Shown here: positions 26,720 to 42,255 of the stretch, piece by piece
Layout: each line of letters starts with the position of its first letter
Numbering within the stretch: position 1 is the first letter of the stretch
Made by a program: the position numbers and the translations under genes
The notes under the pieces: model-generated
Database searches by the model: none
What the model was told of the DNA's origin: nothing
The model's input: only the letters and a program-made list of their open reading frames with translations
IMG/VR virus record: IMGVR_UViG_3300037882_001682
Location: 1-42,255 of that record
Source: a virus
Reading direction: 5' to 3' (one strand)
DNA length: 42,255 nt

Positions 26720-26770
26720 TTTAATTACTTTAACAATAGGTTGAAGTGAGGGTTTTTCTCGACGTATTAG

Positions 26771-26799
26771 GTAACGGTGGGAAACTGCCGTTACTTTTT
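26771..26799 (+). terminator. Rho-independent terminator
   Basis: GTAACGG and CCGTTAC (26771-26777, 26788-26794) pair perfectly and are followed by TTTTT. Confidence 0.85.
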
Positions 26800-26824
26800 G
26801 ATTTAGATTCTTTTTAGATTTTTT

Positions 26825-26923
26825 ATGACAAAGAGGACGGTGTTGACCGTGAGGCTGGGGCTACAAGCCTTAATAGCCTTATTAGTAATATACCATTTAA
26901 TAAATAAGATATATTACCGATAA
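26825..26923 (+). CDS. Membrane peptide, 32 aa
   Basis: The 32-codon ORF, MTKRTVLTVRLGLQALIALL followed by VIYHLINKIYYR, is basic at the N-terminus with one hydrophobic span. It is preceded by a U-rich spacer and a terminator. Such peptides recur in this arm. No family is recognised. Confidence 0.45.
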   Translation: MTKRTVLTVRLGLQALIALLVIYHLINKIYYR

Positions 26924-27267
26924 ACCTTTTTATATAAATCAAATCTCTTTTACTCCTTTAAAACCTAAATAACAATAATGATATGTTGAGTATTTACGGT
27001 TCTCCACCGACCTCAACTGAATGAGATTACCCTCGTTCCTTTTCTTTCCTTTTATGGCTTTTCAAAGAACTTTACTCGGGGTTAGAGGGGTAATACTCTA
27101 ACCACTTTTTCAATCTCTCAAAACGCTTTAAAATCCTTTTTAAACCCAAAAACAAATTCAATTAACACAATTGAATCAACAAATAAAAAGATAACTATAC
27201 TAACAGTATATACTACTATTAATATAGTTCCTCCACCATCAAAATCAGTAATATAAAATATTTAAGC
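26924..27267 (+). other. Non-coding stretch with two hairpins
   Basis: No convincing gene. It contains a terminator (GGTTAGAG/CTCTAACC at 27080-27103 followed by ACTTTTT) and a smaller hairpin TTCAATT/AATTGAA at 27157-27175. The part before the terminator (about 26980-27079), including a C/T-rich patch near 27030-27055, could be a short RNA. The last 90 bases are plain A/T-rich leader. Confidence 0.55.
27080..27110 (+). terminator. Rho-independent terminator
   Basis: GGTTAGAG (27080-27087) pairs with CTCTAACC (27096-27103) around an 8-base loop, followed by ACTTTTT. Confidence 0.75.
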
Positions 27268-27416
27268 ATGTTTTACTTTGTTGTGGCTATTGCTAATTTA
27301 GTAATTCTTAAACAAAGCACTTCTTTAGGTGAGACAATATTTTTGCCACAGCAACAGTAGGCTCAATTATGGGAATGATTGTATTTCATCCAAATTGGCC
27401 ATCAAAACCAGAATAA
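27268..27416 (+). pseudogene. Two-span membrane peptide split by an apparent -1 frameshift
   Basis: The ATG frame at 27268 gives 30 residues (MFYFVVAIANLVILKQSTSL) and stops with TAG at 27360. From about 27340 the -1 frame reads FATATVGSIMGMIVFHPNWP and stops at 27416. Joined at the T-run of ATATTTTTG, the product would be about 49 residues with two hydrophobic segments. Explanations are a one-base deletion in the run, a sequencing error or ribosomal slippage; the run is a weak slippery site. The joined reading is inference. Confidence 0.45.
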
Positions 27417-27553
27417 CCCTAACAAAGATTTTCATGGGATTATGAAGCCTGTTTGTATCAGACATAAGACTACGATAACAACAGAATCCAACGATAGCCT
27501 TCAAATACTACAGTAATGTAGGGCTAATTGTTTTGAGTTATTGTTACCTAATG

Positions 27554-27569
27554 GTACAACAGGTTTCTT
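27554..27569 (+). repeat. 16-base direct repeat, copy 1
   Basis: GTACAACAGGTTTCTT is identical at 27554-27569 and 28065-28080. Both copies lie in non-coding leaders, so a shared processing or translation signal is possible. Confidence 0.65.
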
Positions 27570-27635
27570 TTTCTTTTATTTAAAACATCGCCGTATTTTT
27601 CTTATAGTTTTTGCAGGCACAAGAAAAACTATTAA

Positions 27636-27716
27636 TACAGTTGCTATTGTGAAAGATATTGAAACTATTACATAGTAATGGAATCATGTAAATCATAAGT
27701 AACAATAGTGACTGTA
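27636..27716 (+). ncRNA. Long wobble-rich hairpin, copy 2 of the ACAGTTGCTAT family
   Basis: TACAGTTGCTATTGT (27636-27650) pairs along all 15 positions with ACAATAGTGACTGTA (27702-27716), with two adjacent G-U pairs as in copy 1. The loop again contains ACTATTA...TAGT, which can form a small hairpin. TTTTTCACC follows, and the next gene starts 27 bases later. Confidence 0.6.
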
Positions 27717-27742
27717 TTTTTCACCTCTTAAATAACAAATCA

Positions 27743-28288: not shown

Positions 28289-28567
28289 GGTATAATCTGG
28301 CACACATCTCTAAAGTAGGAATTGAGATGTTTAATATAAATATAGTACGGTTCAATCCCGTCTAATACTGATTACTATAACCATAGTACATTCAGTAGTA
28401 TTTATAAAAGGTTCCTGCACCGTGCGTCTTACGGTATCTAAATGTCTAAGAGTAATTAACTTAGACTAAATCATATCACAGTTTAGGTACGCCTATTAAC
28501 TCCAAAATGGAGACGAATTAAAAACAGGAGGACAAAGAATCAATGACGATTGATTTGCCCTGTTTTT
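28289..28567 (+). ncRNA. Candidate structured RNA ending in a forked terminator
   Basis: No gene is visible, but hairpins follow each other closely: ACATCTC/GAGATGT (28304-28330), a T-arm-like ACGG-TTCAATC-CCGT (28347-28361), TACTAT/ATAGTA, ACCGT/ACGGT (about 28419-28435), GTCTAAG/CTTAGAC (28444-28466) and CTCC/GGAG (28500-28512). The end is a terminator in which AAAACAGG pairs with CCTGTTTTT and an inner AATCAAT/ATTGATT forms a second arm. The density of perfect stems argues for a processed RNA rather than spacer. Identity unknown; it is not a normal tRNA. Confidence 0.55.
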
Positions 28568-28880
28568 ATTAATATAAATAATTCAAATTTAGATTATGTT
28601 TTAACATGCCCCAGTAATGGAGGATGTAGGCTGATTAAATTCAGATAAGTTATAGTTTACAGAATTGTGTTTTAACACAATTCTTGATAATCCAATACTA
28701 TAACGATGGCATCAAGTTGGATACTTGGATTTTGTATAAGCGGGGGTGACTGACAGACGGTTGCTGATATTAGGTTATACAATCTTATTCAATTTTGTAA
28801 AAAGCTATTACTTCATTGAAATTGTGCAGCCACAGTAATGTGGTAACATTATATATTAAACCAATAAAATCCTTGTAATT
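28568..28880 (+). ncRNA. Candidate structured RNA containing the UUGGAUA-loop element (copy A)
   Basis: An 8-bp stem GTTATAGT/ACTATAAC (28649-28656, 28697-28704) encloses a perfect 10-bp hairpin (28661-28684). GATGGCA follows at once at 28705-28711, then a hairpin CAAG-TTGGATA-CTTG (28713-28727), then a further 8-bp stem TTGTATAA/TTATACAA (28732-28739, 28775-28782). ATCCAA at 28690-28695 is complementary to the TTGGAT of the loop, which would make a pseudoknot. The same order occurs at 31455-31597 with different stem sequences. GUAA-loop hairpins flank it at 28611-28620 and 28830-28843. Confidence 0.6.
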
Positions 28881-29045
28881 ATGATTAACTATAAGAAAGC
28901 TGTTAAAATTACAGCATTTATTATCGGAATAGCTGCAATTATTTTATTTTTAACTACAAATAATCTAAAAGTAGCTATATTAGCTGGTATAATTTCTGTT
29001 AACTTTATCCATAAACAAATTATTAAACTTCATCATGTCAACTAA
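28881..29045 (+). CDS. Two-span membrane protein, 54 aa
   Basis: A 54-codon ORF (MINYKKAVKITAFIIGIAAI start) with hydrophobic spans at about residues 9-25 and 29-44, the second containing KVAILAGIISVNF. It ends KQIIKLHHVN. It overlaps the next start by 11 bases, so the two genes are coupled. A holin-like or inner-membrane role is possible; no family is recognised. Confidence 0.6.
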   Translation: MINYKKAVKITAFIIGIAAIILFLTTNNLKVAILAGIISVNFIHKQIIKLHHVN

Positions 29046-29520
29046 AATAAAACCAATACAACTGTGTACATTCCAGGGTCATATTATGTTGTTGTGTAAA
29101 AACCATTACAAATACAATGACTTTTTTGAAGCCCTTAAAATGATATGGGCTGTTAGATGCGGTTATGACTATACATTGACATCAAAAGATGCATTATCTT
29201 ATATAGCAGATGATTTATATGATATAATAAGGAAATGTCAACCGGAAAAGTTACCTTATTTGATGGAAACAATCCATAAAGAAGTAACAAATCCAGCGTT
29301 TTGTAAACCTACAATGACACCTATCGAAGCTATCATTTGGGAATATAAGAGTATAATTCATAGAATGCAGATAAAAGAACTTATTGAGGAAAAATACGAA
29401 CCTATTATCCTATTACCAAAACCTCAAGGTAGAATATTTAATCGTATTCTTAGAGGTAGCGGTAAACATACGGATTATTACACAATTACCGAAGCTGATA
29501 ACAACAAAACATTGAGTTAA
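29035..29520 (+). CDS. Hypothetical helical protein, 161 aa
   Basis: A mostly helical soluble protein with several Cys (LCTFQGHIMLLCKNHYKYND) and a segment YDYTLTSKDALSYIADDLYD. The C-terminus is basic (RIFNRILRGSGKHTDYY). I see no catalytic signature. The start overlaps the membrane gene by 11 bases, which is a reason to consider them partners. Confidence 0.6.
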   Translation: MSTKIKPIQLCTFQGHIMLLCKNHYKYNDFFEALKMIWAVRCGYDYTLTSKDALSYIADDLYDIIRKCQPEKLPYLMETIHKEVTNPAFCKPTMTPIEAIIWEYKSIIHRMQIKELIEEKYEPIILLPKPQGRIFNRILRGSGKHTDYYTITEADNNKTLS

Positions 29521-29627
29521 TCTGAACTATCCTTGTTTGGATTAATTCAATGATTTTGTTTCTGAATAAATGCTACGAGAACACTTATTATTTATCAAAC
29601 AATTAACCATTTAAAATTGTAACGGAT

Positions 29628-30005
29628 ATGCAATTTCAACTAACTCACGACTTTAGGAAACAGACCGTTGAGGTGCTGTTTACAGCACAATTGTTTAAAT
29701 ACAATGTTGTTAAAGCATTTGAATCAACATTTACACGAATTGGTGGAACAATGGATGATAAAGGTCTTTGGACATTTCCTTCTTTTGTCTCTTCATCATT
29801 ACTTCAGGAAATTATCAAAAATACTTGTTTTGTATGTGGCGGTTTAATGAAAGACTCCACGGCTATGTTACAAGGGGAATGTTATGTAGAATCATATGAC
29901 AATTTTGTTAACACTTATCAAGGTGTAATTAAGCACCTTAATAACAACGACACAAAGCAGATAAAAGTAAGAAAATGTTCATCTTGTGGACATTCTCATA
30001 CATAA
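29628..30005 (+). CDS. Zinc-ribbon protein, 125 aa
   Basis: Two CxxC knuckles are clear: Cys67/Cys70 (CFVCGG) and Cys117/Cys120 (CSSCGHSHT), so a four-cysteine zinc site is likely. The N-terminal 60 residues are mixed alpha/beta with GGTMDDKGLWTFP. Zinc ribbons in small phage proteins often bind RNA polymerase or nucleic acid, but the target here cannot be read from the sequence. It ends four bases before a structured non-coding stretch. Confidence 0.65.
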   Translation: MQFQLTHDFRKQTVEVLFTAQLFKYNVVKAFESTFTRIGGTMDDKGLWTFPSFVSSSLLQEIIKNTCFVCGGLMKDSTAMLQGECYVESYDNFVNTYQGVIKHLNNNDTKQIKVRKCSSCGHSHT

Positions 30006-30246
30006 TACAGGTTGCAATCTTAATATTAAACCATGACTGATGGTTGGAGGTAATATACAGTTAGTCGAAGCAACTATTCTTATTGGATAGGAAGTAGCGG
30101 GCTTAAATAACTCTAATACGGATTAACTACTGATAAAATAATCTCCCAGTAAATTGTAATCGATGGGAGATTGAATCAATTACAACAACAAACAAAACAA
30201 AACTTATTCTTATTAACTAAGTAAGTCTTTACAATAGGCTATTTAT
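30006..30246 (+). ncRNA. Structured non-coding stretch
   Basis: No gene is visible in 241 bases. Perfect stems include AACCAT/ATGGTT, AGTT/AACT near 30059-30075 and TTCTTAT-TGG-ATAGGAA near 30078-30096. A 9-bp stem AATCTCCCA/TGGGAGATT (30140-30172) probably ends the upstream transcript. It may be a small RNA or a long structured spacer. Confidence 0.4.
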
Positions 30247-30519
30247 ATGCTTAAATTCTTGGGCAATCTGATTACAGGTAAAGCATTGGATAATAAGATA
30301 AGTTTTGTTTTGTTTAAATTAAATAACATGGAACAAGATATAATAAAAACTGTAACAATTGTTTATGAAAACAAAGCAGTAACCCTAGAAAAAATATTAC
30401 AGGATATTGATAAATCATACGGATTACAAGATTATAATATCACAGCTTTTAAACCTGATTTCGTAATAACACTAATTAATAAGATTATTGAATACGAAAA
30501 GGAAAGAAAAACAAAATAA
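30247..30519 (+). CDS. Hypothetical protein, 90 aa
   Basis: A helical protein with an amphipathic N-terminus (MLKFLGNLITGKALDNKI) that could contact a membrane, and a basic C-terminal helix ending in KERKTK. No motif is recognised. It is separated from its neighbours by about 50 bases on the 3' side. Confidence 0.55.
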   Translation: MLKFLGNLITGKALDNKISFVLFKLNNMEQDIIKTVTIVYENKAVTLEKILQDIDKSYGLQDYNITAFKPDFVITLINKIIEYEKERKTK

Positions 30520-30570
30520 CATAAATAAACATCTGGACACACTATTTTACTAATTATACATACTATTAAA

Positions 30571-31197
30571 ATGAAACTATTTATTTTAGTTATTTTTACT
30601 ATTTTCTCCACCTTATCTTTTACGGGGAAAACACAATGCACCGTTGATTTAGGTCAACGTGATGTAACTAATGACCAAAATGTTTACCAAATCAGTTTTA
30701 GTGAGTTGCCTAAAAATACCTGCTATCCCTTAGTAGATAGTCATTATATCGCTATTACTGTTTATTGTGAGGGTTACACGGAGAAACTAACGATGGCTTC
30801 AACGGACACTCTTAAAATAGAAATAAATAACAGCGTTATTATTTTTATGCGTGTCGTTTGGGTAAGACCCAATGGTAGTAAAAGTGTTACTATATATCCA
30901 CCGTTATGTTTAAATGACGGGGCAGGCGAAGATTGTTTTAACATTATTGAAGATGTTATTCCACCAGCATCACCTGTTGTACCTAGTATTACATTAGAGA
31001 ACTATGTGATAACAAGTAACATTCCCGGTGTACTAGTAGTAGTAACATATCCTTCTTATACTCCTATTTTAGTAATAGATTTTGCTCAACCTTTTGAGTA
31101 TAATTTCCTGTTTACAACACCCCAATTAATTGGATTACACCGTATTTATATGGTAACCAGTAGCCAAACTTATGATTTAGGTGTTGTAGATTTTTAA
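30571..31197 (+). CDS. Secreted protein of unknown function, 208 aa
   Basis: The N-terminus MKLFILVIFTIFSTLSFTGK is a Sec signal peptide with cleavage expected around residue 20-22. The mature protein has Cys at about residues 23, 51, 65, 113 and 121, a Pro-rich linker (VIPPASPVVPS) near residue 135 and a beta-rich C-terminal domain resembling small Ig-like secreted domains. Export to periplasm or surface is likely. In this early-region setting it could alter the host envelope, but that is inference. Confidence 0.65.
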   Translation: MKLFILVIFTIFSTLSFTGKTQCTVDLGQRDVTNDQNVYQISFSELPKNTCYPLVDSHYIAITVYCEGYTEKLTMASTDTLKIEINNSVIIFMRVVWVRPNGSKSVTIYPPLCLNDGAGEDCFNIIEDVIPPASPVVPSITLENYVITSNIPGVLVVVTYPSYTPILVIDFAQPFEYNFLFTTPQLIGLHRIYMVTSSQTYDLGVVDF

Positions 31198-31210
31198 AAA
31201 TAATACAATA

Positions 31211-31381
31211 ATGCCAGGCAAGAAATACAATAGTAGTGACGATAATAATGACGATAAGCAACATAATGATAACGAATATGTTCCTACGGTTTATAACTGC
31301 ATCGTATGTTTAGATACAGAACGAGTTAAAGAGGGTAAAACAGAAATAGTCTGTCCTTATTGTATGCCGATGCTTGGTTAA
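31211..31381 (+). CDS. Small zinc-ribbon protein, 56 aa
   Basis: A 56-codon ORF with a polar Asp/Asn-rich first 22 residues and two CxxC pairs, Cys30/Cys33 (CIVC) and Cys48/Cys51 (CPYC), typical of a zinc ribbon. It ends at the border of the large structured RNA locus. Partner and target are unknown. Confidence 0.6.
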   Translation: MPGKKYNSSDDNNDDKQHNDNEYVPTVYNCIVCLDTERVKEGKTEIVCPYCMPMLG

Positions 31382-32119
31382 CATTTTTGTTAATTTCAAT
31401 TGATTTAAAATTACACTCGAAAGAGAAAATAATTGTCCTATTATATAGGAATAAACGACTATCATCTGACCCTTGTATATAGCAAGGTAAATTGGATATA
31501 TCCTTTAAAATAGTCGTGATGGCAGCCAGTTGGATACTGGCGTTTAATATATCGTAAAAAGAGAAGCTCAAAGTTTGTACATTAAGGCACGAGTACAATT
31601 GCTTGCAAAGTTCTTTGGTATGTTATCCTAATATAATTATATAAAGTACACATATGATTATATATTGTGCGGAGACTACAAAAGAGTAGTCTGTTATTAA
31701 AAATTAGCGAGGACGCAAAAGACCAGCTATACAGTCTGACTAACTGTTGATTATGTTGAACCTCATTTAAAAGTCTATGAGGCTGCTGGAATAGATATAC
31801 TGCTGGACAGCAGTAATGAAATGTTCTTATTAATTATAGAACTATAAGTTACAAACTTAGTATTATAACAGACAAGCTGTTTATAGTAAATATCTTGTAG
31901 GGATAATAGCTGTTACTAAGAGTCATGTTTATCAGTATCATTAATAACTGTTAAAAACTAATTGTATAATTACATAACGAGGGTTATGTTGAAAGGTCTG
32001 CTTCTTTAATGACCACGATAGATTATAAGTCCGAGCATAAAATCTATTTATACAATTAGATGTAATACCATAGCGTTGATGTTTGAAAAACTAACGGAGT
32101 TGTGGTATTACTTCTTTTT
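31382..32119 (+). ncRNA. Large structured RNA locus, about 740 nt, ending in a terminator
   Basis: There is no gene, but strong stems run from end to end. It starts with TCCTA/TAGGA and then copy B of the UUGGAUA element (31455-31597). AGACTAC/GTAGTCT, CCTCAT/ATGAGG, CTGCT/AGCAG, GTTCT/AGAAC and ACTATAA/TTATAGT follow. A perfect 12-bp stem at 31958-31969/32048-32059 encloses three hairpins like a cloverleaf. A 9-bp terminator stem (32062-32070/32103-32111) with TTCTTTTT ends it. Size and phage/tRNA neighbourhood recall the large ornate RNAs GOLLD and ROOL, but I cannot show identity. It may be one RNA or several. Confidence 0.65.
32062..32119 (+). terminator. Rho-independent terminator of the structured RNA locus
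   Basis: GTAATACCA and TGGTATTAC form a perfect 9-bp stem around 32 bases and are followed by TTCTTTTT. It marks the 3' end of the non-coding transcript and isolates it from the gene at 32172. Confidence 0.85.
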
Positions 32120-32171
32120 AAACTAATTTAATTAACAATTAACAATTAACAATATTAAACTTAAACCAGTT

Positions 32172-33767: not shown

Positions 33768-33840
33768 GGCCTATTAGCTCAACGGATAGAGCGGCTGAGT
33801 TCTAACCAGCGGGTTACAGGTTCGATTCCTGTATAGGCTA
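33768..33840 (+). tRNA. tRNA-Arg (anticodon UCU)
   Basis: The cloverleaf is complete: acceptor GGCCTAT/ATAGGCT with a G-U first pair, D stem GCTC/GAGC, anticodon stem GCTGA/CCAGC, loop GTTCTAA with UCU at positions 34-36, T stem ACAGG/CCTGT with loop TTCGATT and discriminator A. Oddities are an A31-C39 mismatch and G at position 32. CCA is not encoded. It would read AGA codons, frequent in this AT-rich genome. Confidence 0.9.
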
Positions 33841-33951
33841 CGATTTAATAATGATAAACCATAATTTGTAATAGGGAAAATATCAGTTAAAGTCTGATTG
33901 TTAGTGTACCTAATATAGTTTAAGTGACAAAAACGTACCTATTACATTTAC

Positions 33952-34037
33952 GCCCAGGTGGTGAAATTGGTAGACACGCAGGACTTAAAATCCTGTGGCC
34001 AGTAATGGCCGTGCGGGTTCAAGTCCCGCTCTGGGTA
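33952..34037 (+). tRNA. tRNA-Leu (anticodon UAA)
   Basis: A class II tRNA: acceptor GCCCAGG/TCTGGGT, anticodon stem CAGGA/TCCTG with loop CTTAAAA (anticodon UAA), long variable arm GGCCA-GTAA-TGGCC, T stem GCGGG/CCCGC and discriminator A. It reads TTA, a dominant leucine codon in the phage. Confidence 0.94.
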
Positions 34038-34043
34038 CGTTCA

Positions 34044-34110
34044 GGAGATAAATAATAGTATGTAGCAATAAGGACTAACTTGGAGAGCTTATACTATTAT
34101 CCTCCTTTTT
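34044..34110 (+). terminator. Terminator of the tRNA transcript
   Basis: AATAGTAT pairs with ATACTATT, and the outer GGAG pairs with CTCC, followed by TTTTTATT. It begins six bases after tRNA-Leu and ends 28 bases before the next gene. Confidence 0.75.
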
Positions 34111-34138
34111 ATTAATAATACAACACAATCCATACATT

Positions 34139-34384
34139 ATGTTAATTTATAACAAAGAGGCAACAATAAAATCGGTATATGTAATAGAGGCGTGGGTATT
34201 AACCATATACTATTATATAGGTAACCAGTACTGTGAAGCTCAAATAGAACTTACGGAGGATGAAATACAAGAAAGATTTGGTCATACAGAACCCTCTTGG
34301 CTAATAAGACAATCACTAAACATAACAATTCAATTTTTTGAAGATTCATTTGGAAATGAGATGAGCACAATAGAGTTGGACTAG
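34139..34384 (+). CDS. Hypothetical small protein, 81 aa
   Basis: A small acidic protein: beta-rich start (IKSVYVIEAWVLTIYYYIG) and an acidic helical second half (ELTEDEIQERFGHTE). The TAG stop shares its last base with the first base of the tmRNA, so there is no spacer between coding and RNA gene. The 5' end of tmRNA must be cut from this message. No family is recognised. Confidence 0.6.
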   Translation: MLIYNKEATIKSVYVIEAWVLTIYYYIGNQYCEAQIELTEDEIQERFGHTEPSWLIRQSLNITIQFFEDSFGNEMSTIELD

Positions 34385-34707
34385 GGGGTGTATTGGTTTC
34401 GACAGGTAATTTTGGTTATCATTCGCATCTGGATGAGTATGCTATCCACAAGTTAAGCATATAAACAATAAATGGCACAACTCATAATGAAGTTCCGGTT
34501 ATTAATATGTTTTCTGCACCATCTCGTATGCGTGTAGCTGCATAATATAGGTTTTCTTTATTTTTTAGTATTAATATAAAAATAAAGTGGTGGAGAATGT
34601 ACTGCTGTACGTTCCTATGTTTACCAGTTTCTCAAACTGGGTAAGATGCTAAATAAGAATGATAATGCTGGTTATTCTGGACGGGGGTTCAAGTCCCCCC
34701 ACCTCCA
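34384..34707 (+). ncRNA. ssrA: tmRNA (transfer-messenger RNA), one-piece
   Basis: The 5' end GGGGGTG followed by TATTGGTTTCGACAGG is diagnostic. The 3' part has T stem GGGGG-TTCAAGT-CCCCC (34683-34699) and CACCTCC-A (34700-34707), which pairs with the 5' seven bases through one G-U. Together they make the alanine-type acceptor half; a final CCA is not encoded. The resume codon is GGC at 34474 and the tag frame ends TAA at 34543-34545: 23 residues, starting Gly-Thr-Thr-His-Asn-Glu and ending Arg-Met-Arg-Val-Ala-Ala. tmRNA rescues stalled ribosomes and tags products for proteolysis. Host Bacteroidota tags are about 9 residues, so this one is unusually long. Confidence 0.95.
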
Positions 34708-34716
34708 CATAATTAC

Positions 34717-38350: not shown

Positions 38351-38666
38351 ACGCTTTTCCGATTTAGTTAATTTACATCCTAATTCGTGGATTCATAAAG
38401 TAAGAGAAATTAATCTTTTTTATACGGGTTATTCTCTTATAGATTGTTTCATAGTTTTAGATGTAAATCAACAAGCTAATCTTCAAGCATTTATAGCATT
38501 CAATAATCAAACAGGTTTAGGTGTCTTTACAGGACAACCTAAAGATGTTAATTATTGGTACTATCGTTATATTGAACAATCTGTAAGAGATACTATTCCT
38601 TTTTATAGATTAGTAGCTCCTATCACGATTGAATATGATATAACGGAAACAATTGCTTGGAATTAG
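38307..38666 (+). CDS. Hypothetical protein, 119 aa
   Basis: Starts inside the end of the 132-aa gene (44-base overlap) with MENSLFDNELQETPKRFSDL. The body is mixed alpha/beta with many aromatics (VNYWYYRYIEQSVRDTIPFY). The stop is 12 bases before a strong terminator, so this gene closes a transcription unit. No motif recognised. Confidence 0.6.
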   Translation: MENSLFDNELQETPKRFSDLVNLHPNSWIHKVREINLFYTGYSLIDCFIVLDVNQQANLQAFIAFNNQTGLGVFTGQPKDVNYWYYRYIEQSVRDTIPFYRLVAPITIEYDITETIAWN

Positions 38667-38677
38667 TTTAATATAAG

Positions 38678-38720
38678 AGAACTGGTAATTAGATTTTATA
38701 TCTAGTTACTAGTTCTTTTT
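38678..38720 (+). terminator. Rho-independent terminator
   Basis: AGAACTGGTAATTAGA (38678-38693) pairs along 16 positions with TCTAGTTACTAGTTCT (38701-38716) with G-U pairs, followed by TTTT. It separates the helicase unit from endolysin and polymerase. Confidence 0.85.
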
Positions 38721-39278: not shown

Positions 39279-39600
39279 ATTAGTTAACGATACTACATAT
39301 TATAATGACACTCCAGATGAAGTTATTAAAATTCTTGAAACATATAGACAAAAGAGGGGTTATGAAAATAATACAAGACTTGTATTAGACTATGGCAATA
39401 CTGAAACTGGTAAAAGTTGGAGAGAAATTTATAATATTACTGGTTATATAGGTAAGACAGGCGGGAAAATGAAAATGCCTATACTTCTGTATAGCAGTAG
39501 AAGTTTAGGAGGTGGTTTGATATGTACTAATAAAATAGTAAGAATATTAACTGCTAAAGGTAAACAAATTCTCTACTCACACAAAAACTATCATATATGA
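39238..39600 (+). CDS. Conserved hypothetical phage protein, 120 aa
   Basis: The core, NNTRLVLDYGNTETGKSWRE followed by GYIGKTGGKMKMPILLYSSR, resembles a small conserved phage protein with 'R--YGD--TG--W-E----GYIGRS-G--K-PLL' and a late GGG turn (SLGGGLICTNKIVRI). Function is unknown in all members I recall. It starts inside the endolysin gene (41-base overlap) and overlaps the polymerase start by four bases. Confidence 0.7.
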   Translation: MNIQSIIIAGVPYKLVNDTTYYNDTPDEVIKILETYRQKRGYENNTRLVLDYGNTETGKSWREIYNITGYIGKTGGKMKMPILLYSSRSLGGGLICTNKIVRILTAKGKQILYSHKNYHI

Positions 39601-41051
39601 TATATTTTGTAACTAATCGTAATAGTAATCAATACCAAATATCAGATGAACGTATTGAGATTATAGATGAACAAAAAGGTCAAATGTTTTATCAAGAATT
39701 AATAAAGATTGATAAAGTATTAGCATTAGACTTTGAAGCATCTGGTCTTGAAATATTTCAGTTAACACCACTACTATTAGCAATAGGAACTAAAGCTACT
39801 CAATTAGTTATAGATTGTACTACTGTTAATGTATTAAATGTAATTGATAAGCGAATTGAAGATACTGAAATTCTTGGTCATAACATTAAATATGACTTAA
39901 AGATACTTAAAGTTCATTATAATATACACCTTAAAAAAGTGTATGATACAATGAATGTAGAGAGAAAAATATATCAAGGTGCTGGTAAGTCTGTTGATAA
40001 TCCTTTTGGTATGTTATTTGGTCTAGCTGATGTAACTCAACGAAGGCTTAAATATCTACCAGAAACTATGTCAACTAAAGAAGAAAGTAGAGAAAGGTTT
40101 ATAGGACAGACTAAAAGTAGTTATATACCTATTGACCAAGATATAATTTATGCTGCTAGTGACGTTACTTACTTGCATGATATTAAAGCCGCCCAAGAAC
40201 AAGATATTGAGAGGTTTAATTTGGGTTTTTATATTAATCAGATTTCAAATCCTTTAAATCTAACAGTAGCAGATTGTGAACTTAGGGGTTTTACATTTGA
40301 TATTGTTAGTTGGAAAGAATTGATAGTTAAGAATAAGAATAAACAGTTTGAAAAGGCTTGTGTTCTTGATGAACTATTAATTAAATATCGTGATGAATTC
40401 TTACAAGGGGAAGATAGATTATTATTAGTTGGCGGTGAATATACACGAAAAAGGGTTAGACACCCAGAAGCTAATAAGATTGGTTTATTTGGTGATGAAG
40501 TTATTGATAAAGATTACTATGGTAAAGCTAGTAAACCTAAATTTAATACAGGAAATATTAATTGGGATAGTAGTGAACAAGTAGTAGATGTTTGTGCAAG
40601 ACTTAAGATACCTCTCCCTATAAATGATAAGAAGATTGGTGCCGCAGTTCCAAGATTGATTAAACATAAAGATAGAAAAGGTGGTTTAACTGTTAAAATT
40701 GATAAAGGTAATTATACCTTTACAACTGATAAACAAGAACTAGCTTTAATGGTTTCTGAAAATCCTAAACTACCTGCTAAAGATTTTTATCTAACTTTAT
40801 CTGAATATCGTAAGTATTCACATTACATTAGTTCTTTTGGTGAAAACTATATTGATAAAGTAAACCCTATTACTGGTAGAATACATACTTTATTTAGGAC
40901 AGAAAATAGTGAAACGGGAAGATTTCAAAGTGGTGGGGGTCGTAAGAATCCAGAGTATTATAATGCACAAAACATTCCTAGGGATGGTGATTTTAGACAT
41001 TGTTTTATAGCTACTCCTGGTTATAGTATAACTACGTGTGACCTTAGCGGT
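39597..41051 (+). CDS. polA: DNA polymerase family A, exon 1 (485 aa, interrupted in motif A)
   Basis: The proofreading exonuclease has ExoI LDFEASG (Asp45, Glu47), ExoII GHNIKYDL (Asp100) and ExoIII YAASD (Tyr185, Asp189). The polymerase part shows TGRFQSGG, AQNIPRDGDFRHCF and ends TTCDLSG, the start of motif A (usual form D-x-S-x-x-E with the metal-binding Asp). The frame stops two codons later at TGA (41055-41057). After Gly485 the sequence becomes group I intron, so ligated exons should restore motif A and the rest of the palm, which lie beyond this window. It copies the phage genome. Confidence 0.92.
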
Positions 41052-42255
41052 AAATGAAAAACTTTCTACATAATTTTATACTTTGTGATTTTTTATCAAA
41101 TAAATTGCGATATTTGTAGTGATAAAAATTTTAAACTATTAAAAATTATGTAATTATGAGTAATGTATTTAAAGATGCAAATCTTAACAATGAAATTAAA
41201 GTTATAACTTCAGAGGGGTTTACTTTAAGTGTAGAAGCTAAACATAATCATACTGGTAGAAAAGATTATGAAGAAAAATTTGGTGAAAGACGAAAACAAT
41301 TAGTTCAGCTTTTTAATGAAGGTAAAAAAGCAAGTGAAATAGCAGAATTATTAGGTATGCATCCCGCTAATGTTACTAGATATTTAAAACGAGCTGGATT
41401 AAAAACACCAGATAGAAGTGAAGCACAAAGAAGAATACATATTAATTATTTTGAAGATTATAATAATAGAGAAGTTTCTTATTGGATTGGTATGTTAGCT
41501 ACTGATGGTTGGATAGATGAACAAAGACAACGGATTCAATTATCATTAAAAGACAAAGAACATATTGAAAAATTTAATAAATTTTTAGGTGGTGTTATGT
41601 CTGTAAATAGTACAGAAAATCAATGGAGACTAGTATTTAGTCAACCTGATACTTGTAAATCATTAGTAAGTTACGGTGTAACTGGATGTAAATCGTTGAC
41701 GTTAAAATTAACTATTCCAATAACATGGGATATGTTAAGAGGTATAATAGACGGAGATGGTTGTTGGAGTAGAATAAACACTTATGGCGTTTGTTGTAGT
41801 ATAGCAACATGTAGTTATGAATTTGGTAAACAAATTTATATGTTTTTTAAGTCTAATGATATTACACCAGTAGTAAGTAAACAAGTAAAAGATAGATTGA
41901 ATCCTCTTTATGATATACGAATTAATAAGAAAGAAGATATTGCAAAATTAATAACAAACTTATATAAAGATGCTCCGATTTATTTAGACAGAAAAGTAAT
42001 CAAAATAATGCAATTAATTGATAATCCTTCTTTTAAATCGGAAAGTGCCGCCCAATAATGAAAATTATTGGTAAAAAGACCTTAAATTCAAGGAAGTCCC
42101 GCATTGGATAATCTTGAGCGAAATCTATCAACCTATAATATTATAGGTAATAATAGAATTAGATAGAGACGTGCAGAGACTATAATAGGTCAATCTAAGT
42201 ATCATAATATGATATAAGATTAAGGAATAGTCCAAGTGTTGAAAGCACTGGCGGA
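41052..42255 (+). other. Group I intron in DNA polymerase motif A, continuing past the window
   Basis: The 5' splice site is U41051 of GCGGU, which can pair with an internal guide GCCGC at 42047-42051 and gives the required U-G at the cut. P2 is CAATAAT-GAAA-ATTATTG (42053-42070), P6 TCTATC/GATAGA with P6a CCTATAAT/ATTATAGG (42132-42147), and P7 GACTAT/ATAGTC (42178-42183, 42227-42232). P8 is AATCT/AGATT and P9 AGTG/CACT (42235-42249). The string GTGCAGAGACTA is typical of group I cores. The open reading frame sits in the P1 loop. The 3' splice site lies at or beyond the edge. Confidence 0.88.
41156..42058 (+). CDS. LAGLIDADG homing endonuclease in the intron, 300 aa
   Basis: Residues 47-80 are a helix-turn-helix (QLVQLFNEGKKASEIAELLG then MHPANVTRYLKRAG) for target binding. 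The two LAGLIDADG motifs are WIGMLATDG at 110-118 and LRGIIDGDG at 194-202, with catalytic Asp117 and Asp201, so one chain forms the pseudo-dimeric enzyme. It cuts intronless polymerase genes and spreads the intron. Its stop TAA (42056-42058) lies inside intron stem P2 and its last codons overlap the guide sequence, so translation and splicing compete for this RNA. HTH-plus-LAGLIDADG fusions are known in phage introns. Confidence 0.9.
   Translation: MSNVFKDANLNNEIKVITSEGFTLSVEAKHNHTGRKDYEEKFGERRKQLVQLFNEGKKASEIAELLGMHPANVTRYLKRAGLKTPDRSEAQRRIHINYFEDYNNREVSYWIGMLATDGWIDEQRQRIQLSLKDKEHIEKFNKFLGGVMSVNSTENQWRLVFSQPDTCKSLVSYGVTGCKSLTLKLTIPITWDMLRGIIDGDGCWSRINTYGVCCSIATCSYEFGKQIYMFFKSNDITPVVSKQVKDRLNPLYDIRINKKEDIAKLITNLYKDAPIYLDRKVIKIMQLIDNPSFKSESAAQ

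Follow-up and report, generated by a model that had tools for sequence, protein, structure and literature searches.

A candidate duplicated two-hairpin RNA module in the noncoding DNA of a crAss-like phage

The phage record and the setting of the two copies

The window, that is, the whole stretch of DNA analysed here, is a linear virus contig of 42,255 bases. The families matched by its portal protein and its major head protein are phage families with crAss-like phage relatives; the major capsid protein is 42-46% identical to the closest relatives found in IMG/VR and ~34% identical to its nearest named relatives, the Intestiviridae (Crassvirales). The DNA polymerase ORF (39597-41057) is only 486 aa long, with a family match that starts at about residue 666 of 1445, and the 5' part of this gene may be split or encoded elsewhere.

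The element described below occurs twice, in intergenic DNA ahead of two tRNA genes and a tmRNA gene (Table 1). The noncoding stretches that hold the two copies are 590 and 790 nt long and lie near these genes, the nearest tRNA being >2 kb from copy 2. Compared with shuffled sequences, they gave folding z values of -3.6 (copy 1 stretch) and -4.56 (copy 2 stretch), and the similarity between them is limited to a 34-nt core. A further noncoding stretch of 1 kb (26720-27742) contains several terminator-like hairpins, and its two halves have folding z values of -4.3 and -4.7.

Table 1. Coordinates of the two module copies and of the features around them
Feature	Position	Strand	Remarks
Noncoding stretch around copy 1	28572-28880	+	3' of a hairpin with a T run (~28520-28571)
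Copy 1 P1 5' strand, GTTATAGT	28649-28656	+	sequence, shuffle test, pair count
Copy 1 hairpin within P1, AGAATTGTGT/ACACAATTCT	28661-28684	+	10 bp
Copy 1 ATCCAA, P2-loop complement	28690-28695	+	proposed pseudoknot, 6 bp, shuffle p 0.012
Copy 1 P1 3' strand, ACTATAAC	28697-28704	+	sequence, shuffle test, pair count
Copy 1 junction GATGGCA	28705-28711	+	invariant
Copy 1 mini-ORF, MASSWILGFCISGGD then stop	28706-28753	+	overlaps module, rival reading
Copy 1 P2 hairpin, TCAAGT-TGGAT-ACTTGG	28712-28728	+	
Copy 1 downstream stem, TTGTATAA/TTATACAA	28732-28782	+	28732-28739/28775-28782, 8 bp, module membership uncertain
Noncoding stretch around copy 2	31382-32171	+	terminal hairpin with T run near 32066-32120
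Copy 2 P1 5' strand, ACGACTAT	31455-31462	+	sequence, shuffle test, pair count
Copy 2 hairpin within P1, CCTTGT/GCAAGG	31471-31487	+	
Copy 2 TATCC, P2-loop complement	31499-31503	+	proposed pseudoknot, 5 bp, shuffle p 0.073
Copy 2 P1 3' strand, ATAGTCGT	31510-31517	+	sequence, shuffle test, pair count
Copy 2 junction GATGGCA	31518-31524	+	invariant
Copy 2 mini-ORF, MAASWILAFNIS then stop	31519-31557	+	overlaps module, rival reading
Copy 2 P2 hairpin, GCCAGT-TGGAT-ACTGGC	31525-31541	+	
Copy 2 downstream stem	31575-31580/31593-31598	+	6 bp
Two tRNAs and tmRNA	33768-34710		
tmRNA (phage)	34384-34708		23-residue tag GTTHNEVPVINMFSAPSRMRVAA

Architecture and compensated pairing

An earlier reading made from the sequence alone had described two copies of one RNA architecture in this region, and both its positions and its sequences were confirmed. 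The module lies on the + strand at 28649-28728 (copy 1) and 31455-31541 (copy 2), and in each case an 8-bp stem, P1, encloses a hairpin; next comes GATGGCA, an identical junction of 7 nt, and then P2, a second hairpin. P1 abuts the junction and consists of eight Watson-Crick pairs in both copies, just as that reading had it when it noted first stems that differ and yet pair fully, while 12 to 22 nt separate the inner hairpin from the P1 3' strand. The 7-base TTGGATA loop is indeed invariant, but in the minimum-energy fold its two outermost bases, U and A, pair with each other, so that P2 is a 6-bp hairpin with a UGGAU loop. A TTGTA-type stem had been counted as a further common part; the gap that separates it from P2 is 3 nt in copy 1 and 33 nt in copy 2, and it is thus not clearly the same element in both.

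Between the copies, 8 of the 14 pairs are changed on both sides and none is broken, which bears out the description of compensated stems around invariant unpaired bases. For this count, the loop of the copy 2 inner hairpin was shortened by 7 nt, which aligns the P1 strands without padding and leaves the paired bases unaltered. The compensation signal was lost when the partner strand was slid by 1 to 3 columns, and the observed pair score was reached in 3 of 500 shuffles. Within the 24-nt core formed by the junction and P2, all four differences make up two compensated P2 pairs (chance ~6e-4). This compensation had been called the covariation that is the hallmark of a functional RNA; the compensation stands, as strong pairwise evidence from two paralogues in one genome, which is distinct from phylogenetic covariation, since two rows from a single genome do not allow a phylogenetic test.

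The remaining comparisons with shuffled sequence concern the placement and the stability of the parts. A P1 stem abutting the junction has a dinucleotide-shuffle p of 0.00025 in copy 1 and 0.004 in copy 2, and the window contains the combination GATGGCA..TTGGATA at exactly two places, against none in 100 shuffles. When noncoding segments of the window and of three relatives, ~12 kb in all, were scanned with a descriptor free of sequence terms, the two copies were the sole matches, with 0.7 expected by chance in shuffles. Folded whole, copy 1 has a z of -3.4, and copy 2 is not unusually stable (z -0.58). On these results, we are confident that the RNA element is real.

The proposed complementarity between the P2 loop and a strand just before the P1 3' strand (ATCCAA or TATCC) is likewise real, but it is of modest significance in both copies (Table 1) and its pairing is unchanged between them, so a pseudoknot here shows no variation. 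From the sequence, a pseudoknot between the P2 loop and this inner strand is plausible. The copy 2 strand can alternatively close a local hairpin, GGA-UAUA-UCC, and docking may therefore face competition from a different fold.

On their + strand, the noncoding stretches hold four TTGGATA sites. Besides those in the two P2 hairpins, a third one, at 30077-30100 in the intergenic stretch 30006-30246, has a loop-like setting (CTATTCTTATTGGATAGGAAGTAG) and is possibly a degenerate relative of P2.

Searches for further copies and comparison with known RNAs

Scans with the full Rfam library gave no family match for either copy, in agreement with the sequence-only reading, which knew of no such family. 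Exact-pattern scans of IMG/VR and GTDB contigs gave no convincing further copy; the GTDB scan returned 60 matches against ~60 expected by chance, none of them with P1 and P2 like those of the window. Among the candidates set aside, two have full P2 matches inside open frames (L351 and L331), and another forms P2 through wobble pairs, with a weak P1 92 nt away (L149). Two covariance models built on the module, R1 and R2, were used on ~65 viral records in total. R1 gave weak matches in two crAss-like records (W09 and W02), where P2 is broken or deleted and annotated genes are overlapped, and nothing above noise was found with R1 on helicase-bearing loci and records or with R2. R1 also found none in 395 genomes of the Chitinophaga phylum, a search with stricter filters and no positive control; the model and pattern negatives as a whole lack a positive control from beyond the window, and the collections covered may not include near-identical records. 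Nucleotide BLAST against phages and plasmids gave no match.

Conservation in related phages had been named as a check on the element. The closest relatives (capsid identity 42-46%) lack it altogether and so neither confirm nor break the pairing; in the three nearest, read whole or nearly so, the module is absent. These three also have strongly folding noncoding stretches in a comparable region, and these align with those of the window only at the level of AT-rich noise. Since it matches no catalogued family and no copy was found in the other sequences searched, the module is probably a new phage RNA.

One crAss-like relative (record G005, loci L298 and L299) carries a duplicated structured element of its own, at ~38430-38691 and 39551-40213, which spans 45 nt at 80% identity, has compensated stem changes and is unlike the module of the window in sequence. 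A noncoding stretch of the same relative holds a 102-nt tRNA match (L298, 17694-17795, - strand), whose length suggests that it has an extended variable arm or contains an insert.

In layout, the module most closely resembles the ZMP/ZTP (pfl) riboswitch (RF01750), in which two sub-domains are joined by a linker and a pseudoknot connects the loop of the second hairpin to the internal junction of the first arm (PMC10687018). The module likewise has a P1 arm that encloses a hairpin, a linker, a second hairpin and a putative loop-to-junction pseudoknot. A covariance-model search with RF01750 gave no match above the family cut-off in the record, with a control match in 2 of 14 genomes. In the ZTP structure, it is the 5' side of the junction that carries the pseudoknot strand. 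The invariant complementarity found in both copies of the module involves the other junction strand, on the 3' side. Its linker has a fixed length and sequence of 7 nt, and the neighbourhood has no known gene of purine or one-carbon metabolism. The layout is shared and the sequence and the family match are not; by analogy, the module may work like a ZTP-type aptamer.

Theta (HDV-like) ribozymes of gut phages are small pseudoknotted RNAs found in tRNA-bearing phages (PMC10879173). Those associated with tRNAs lie within 5 nt of the tRNA, unlike copy 2 of the module, and no HDV-like Rfam match was found in the record. The HDV-like fold is a nested double pseudoknot in which the P3 3' strand adjoins the P1 3' strand. 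That nested layout is not seen in the module, where the helix order differs and the inner hairpin is set apart from the P1 3' strand. The TwoAYGGAY motif has hairpin loops with a YGGAY-type sequence. The module shares this type of sequence in its hairpin loop, but in the context UUGGAUA and in single hairpins 2.8 kb apart. The name TwoAYGGAY is listed without an Rfam number in PMC2864571, so the motif may be absent from the library searched, from which no match was reported.

A docked module and its rivals

We hypothesize that this phage lineage carries a duplicated RNA module of two docked hairpins, an orphan among known RNAs, whose two copies have a common partner, a reading to which we give a probability of about 0.5, the module being known from two copies in one genome with no homologue in the sequences searched. 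P1 with its inner hairpin would form one arm and P2 the second, hinged to the first through GAUGGCA. The P2 loop, through GGAU, would dock into the inner strand AUCC beside P1 and bring the helices side by side, with the linker crossing P1 to give a compact two-helix body. The invariant junction and loop could then serve as a shared recognition surface on stems that are a free scaffold. We infer transcription of both copies, in two separate noncoding phage transcripts or leaders ahead of the tRNA and tmRNA genes, as well as the docking pseudoknot and the binding of one common partner, which may be a protein, a ribosomal component or a small molecule.

The main rival is a leader-peptide element, since the ATG within GATGGCA, which the sequence-only reading overlooked, opens a 12-15 codon ORF (M-A-x-S-W-I-L-x-F-x-I-S) and offers an explanation of the invariant bases through coding. 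The start would be flanked and controlled by P1 and P2, ribosomes that translate the ORF or stall on it would refold the RNA and so regulate the sequence downstream, and the invariant bases would in part be codons. The frames are open in both copies, 9 of 12 residues are identical, and two of the changes are synonymous (AGC/TCG for Ser, CTT/CTG for Leu). Such a match with open frames has a chance of 0.0034 under 10 random substitutions, and the four codons outside P2 have a chance of 0.007; the residue match is not negligible, even though it was noticed post hoc. Against this, the start contexts come 25th and 31st among 73 noncoding ATGs and score below ~94% of the window's genes, so they resemble noncoding ATGs rather than the starts of the phage's genes. 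Codon use is uninformative, and neither it nor the start context supports translation. A hairpin crowds the start codon on each side, and all matches to the mini-ORF pattern elsewhere lie within longer open frames. Finally, seven of the conserved codons are degenerate, and five of these have no synonymous change although P1 has fully diverged, which we take to point to constraint at the nucleotide level. Overall, we regard a leader peptide as rather unlikely. Still less probable is a combination of the two, in which a new class of docked two-hairpin phage RNA, aptamer-like or regulatory, also encodes a conserved peptide of 12-15 residues in its core, with folding and translation coupled, twice in one crAss-like phage.

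The copies might instead be sub-domains of larger ornate phage RNAs, with the module as one docking element. ROOL (RF03087) and GOLLD are phage noncoding RNAs, often near tRNA islands, that contain pseudoknots and kissing loops (PMC12286853), and the length, tRNA/tmRNA proximity and strongly negative z values of the two noncoding stretches would suit RNAs of this kind. Their folds are far larger than the module, however, and the two stretches are dissimilar outside the 34-nt core; in the copy 1 stretch, the module is preceded by a terminator-like hairpin. The ROOL search gave no match, a weak result as no control genome matched either, and the full Rfam scans, ROOL included, gave none at any threshold used. 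We consider this origin unlikely. Chance hairpins around a short repeated sequence are highly improbable: stems form readily in AT-rich DNA, and copy 2 as a whole is not unusually stable, but the P1 shuffle tests, the P2 compensated-pair test and the descriptor scan all oppose such an origin. A CsrA sponge was also considered on account of GGA in the loops.

We found no paper on structured RNAs of crAss-like phages in a literature search joining these phages with noncoding RNA, and such RNAs seem little described. A module kept twice with a free scaffold and fixed unpaired bases is a concrete entry point. A single binding partner common to both copies is predicted from it, and it defines a construct of 80-90 nt for probing. 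If the mini-ORF were also translated, it would be a compact phage case of overlapping RNA and peptide constraint.

CAGTAATG occurs five times on the + strand (27511, 28612, 28833, 31811 and 34000) and not at all on the - strand, always in noncoding or tRNA DNA, and at four of the five sites it forms a hairpin with a GUAA (GNRA) tetraloop, the variable arm of tRNA-Leu included. A T-arm-like sequence, GTACGGTTCAATCCCGTC, is found in noncoding DNA at 28289-28400, where ARAGORN found no tRNA, and an exact 16-mer, GTACAACAGGTTTCTT, is present at 27554 and 28065, in two noncoding stretches.
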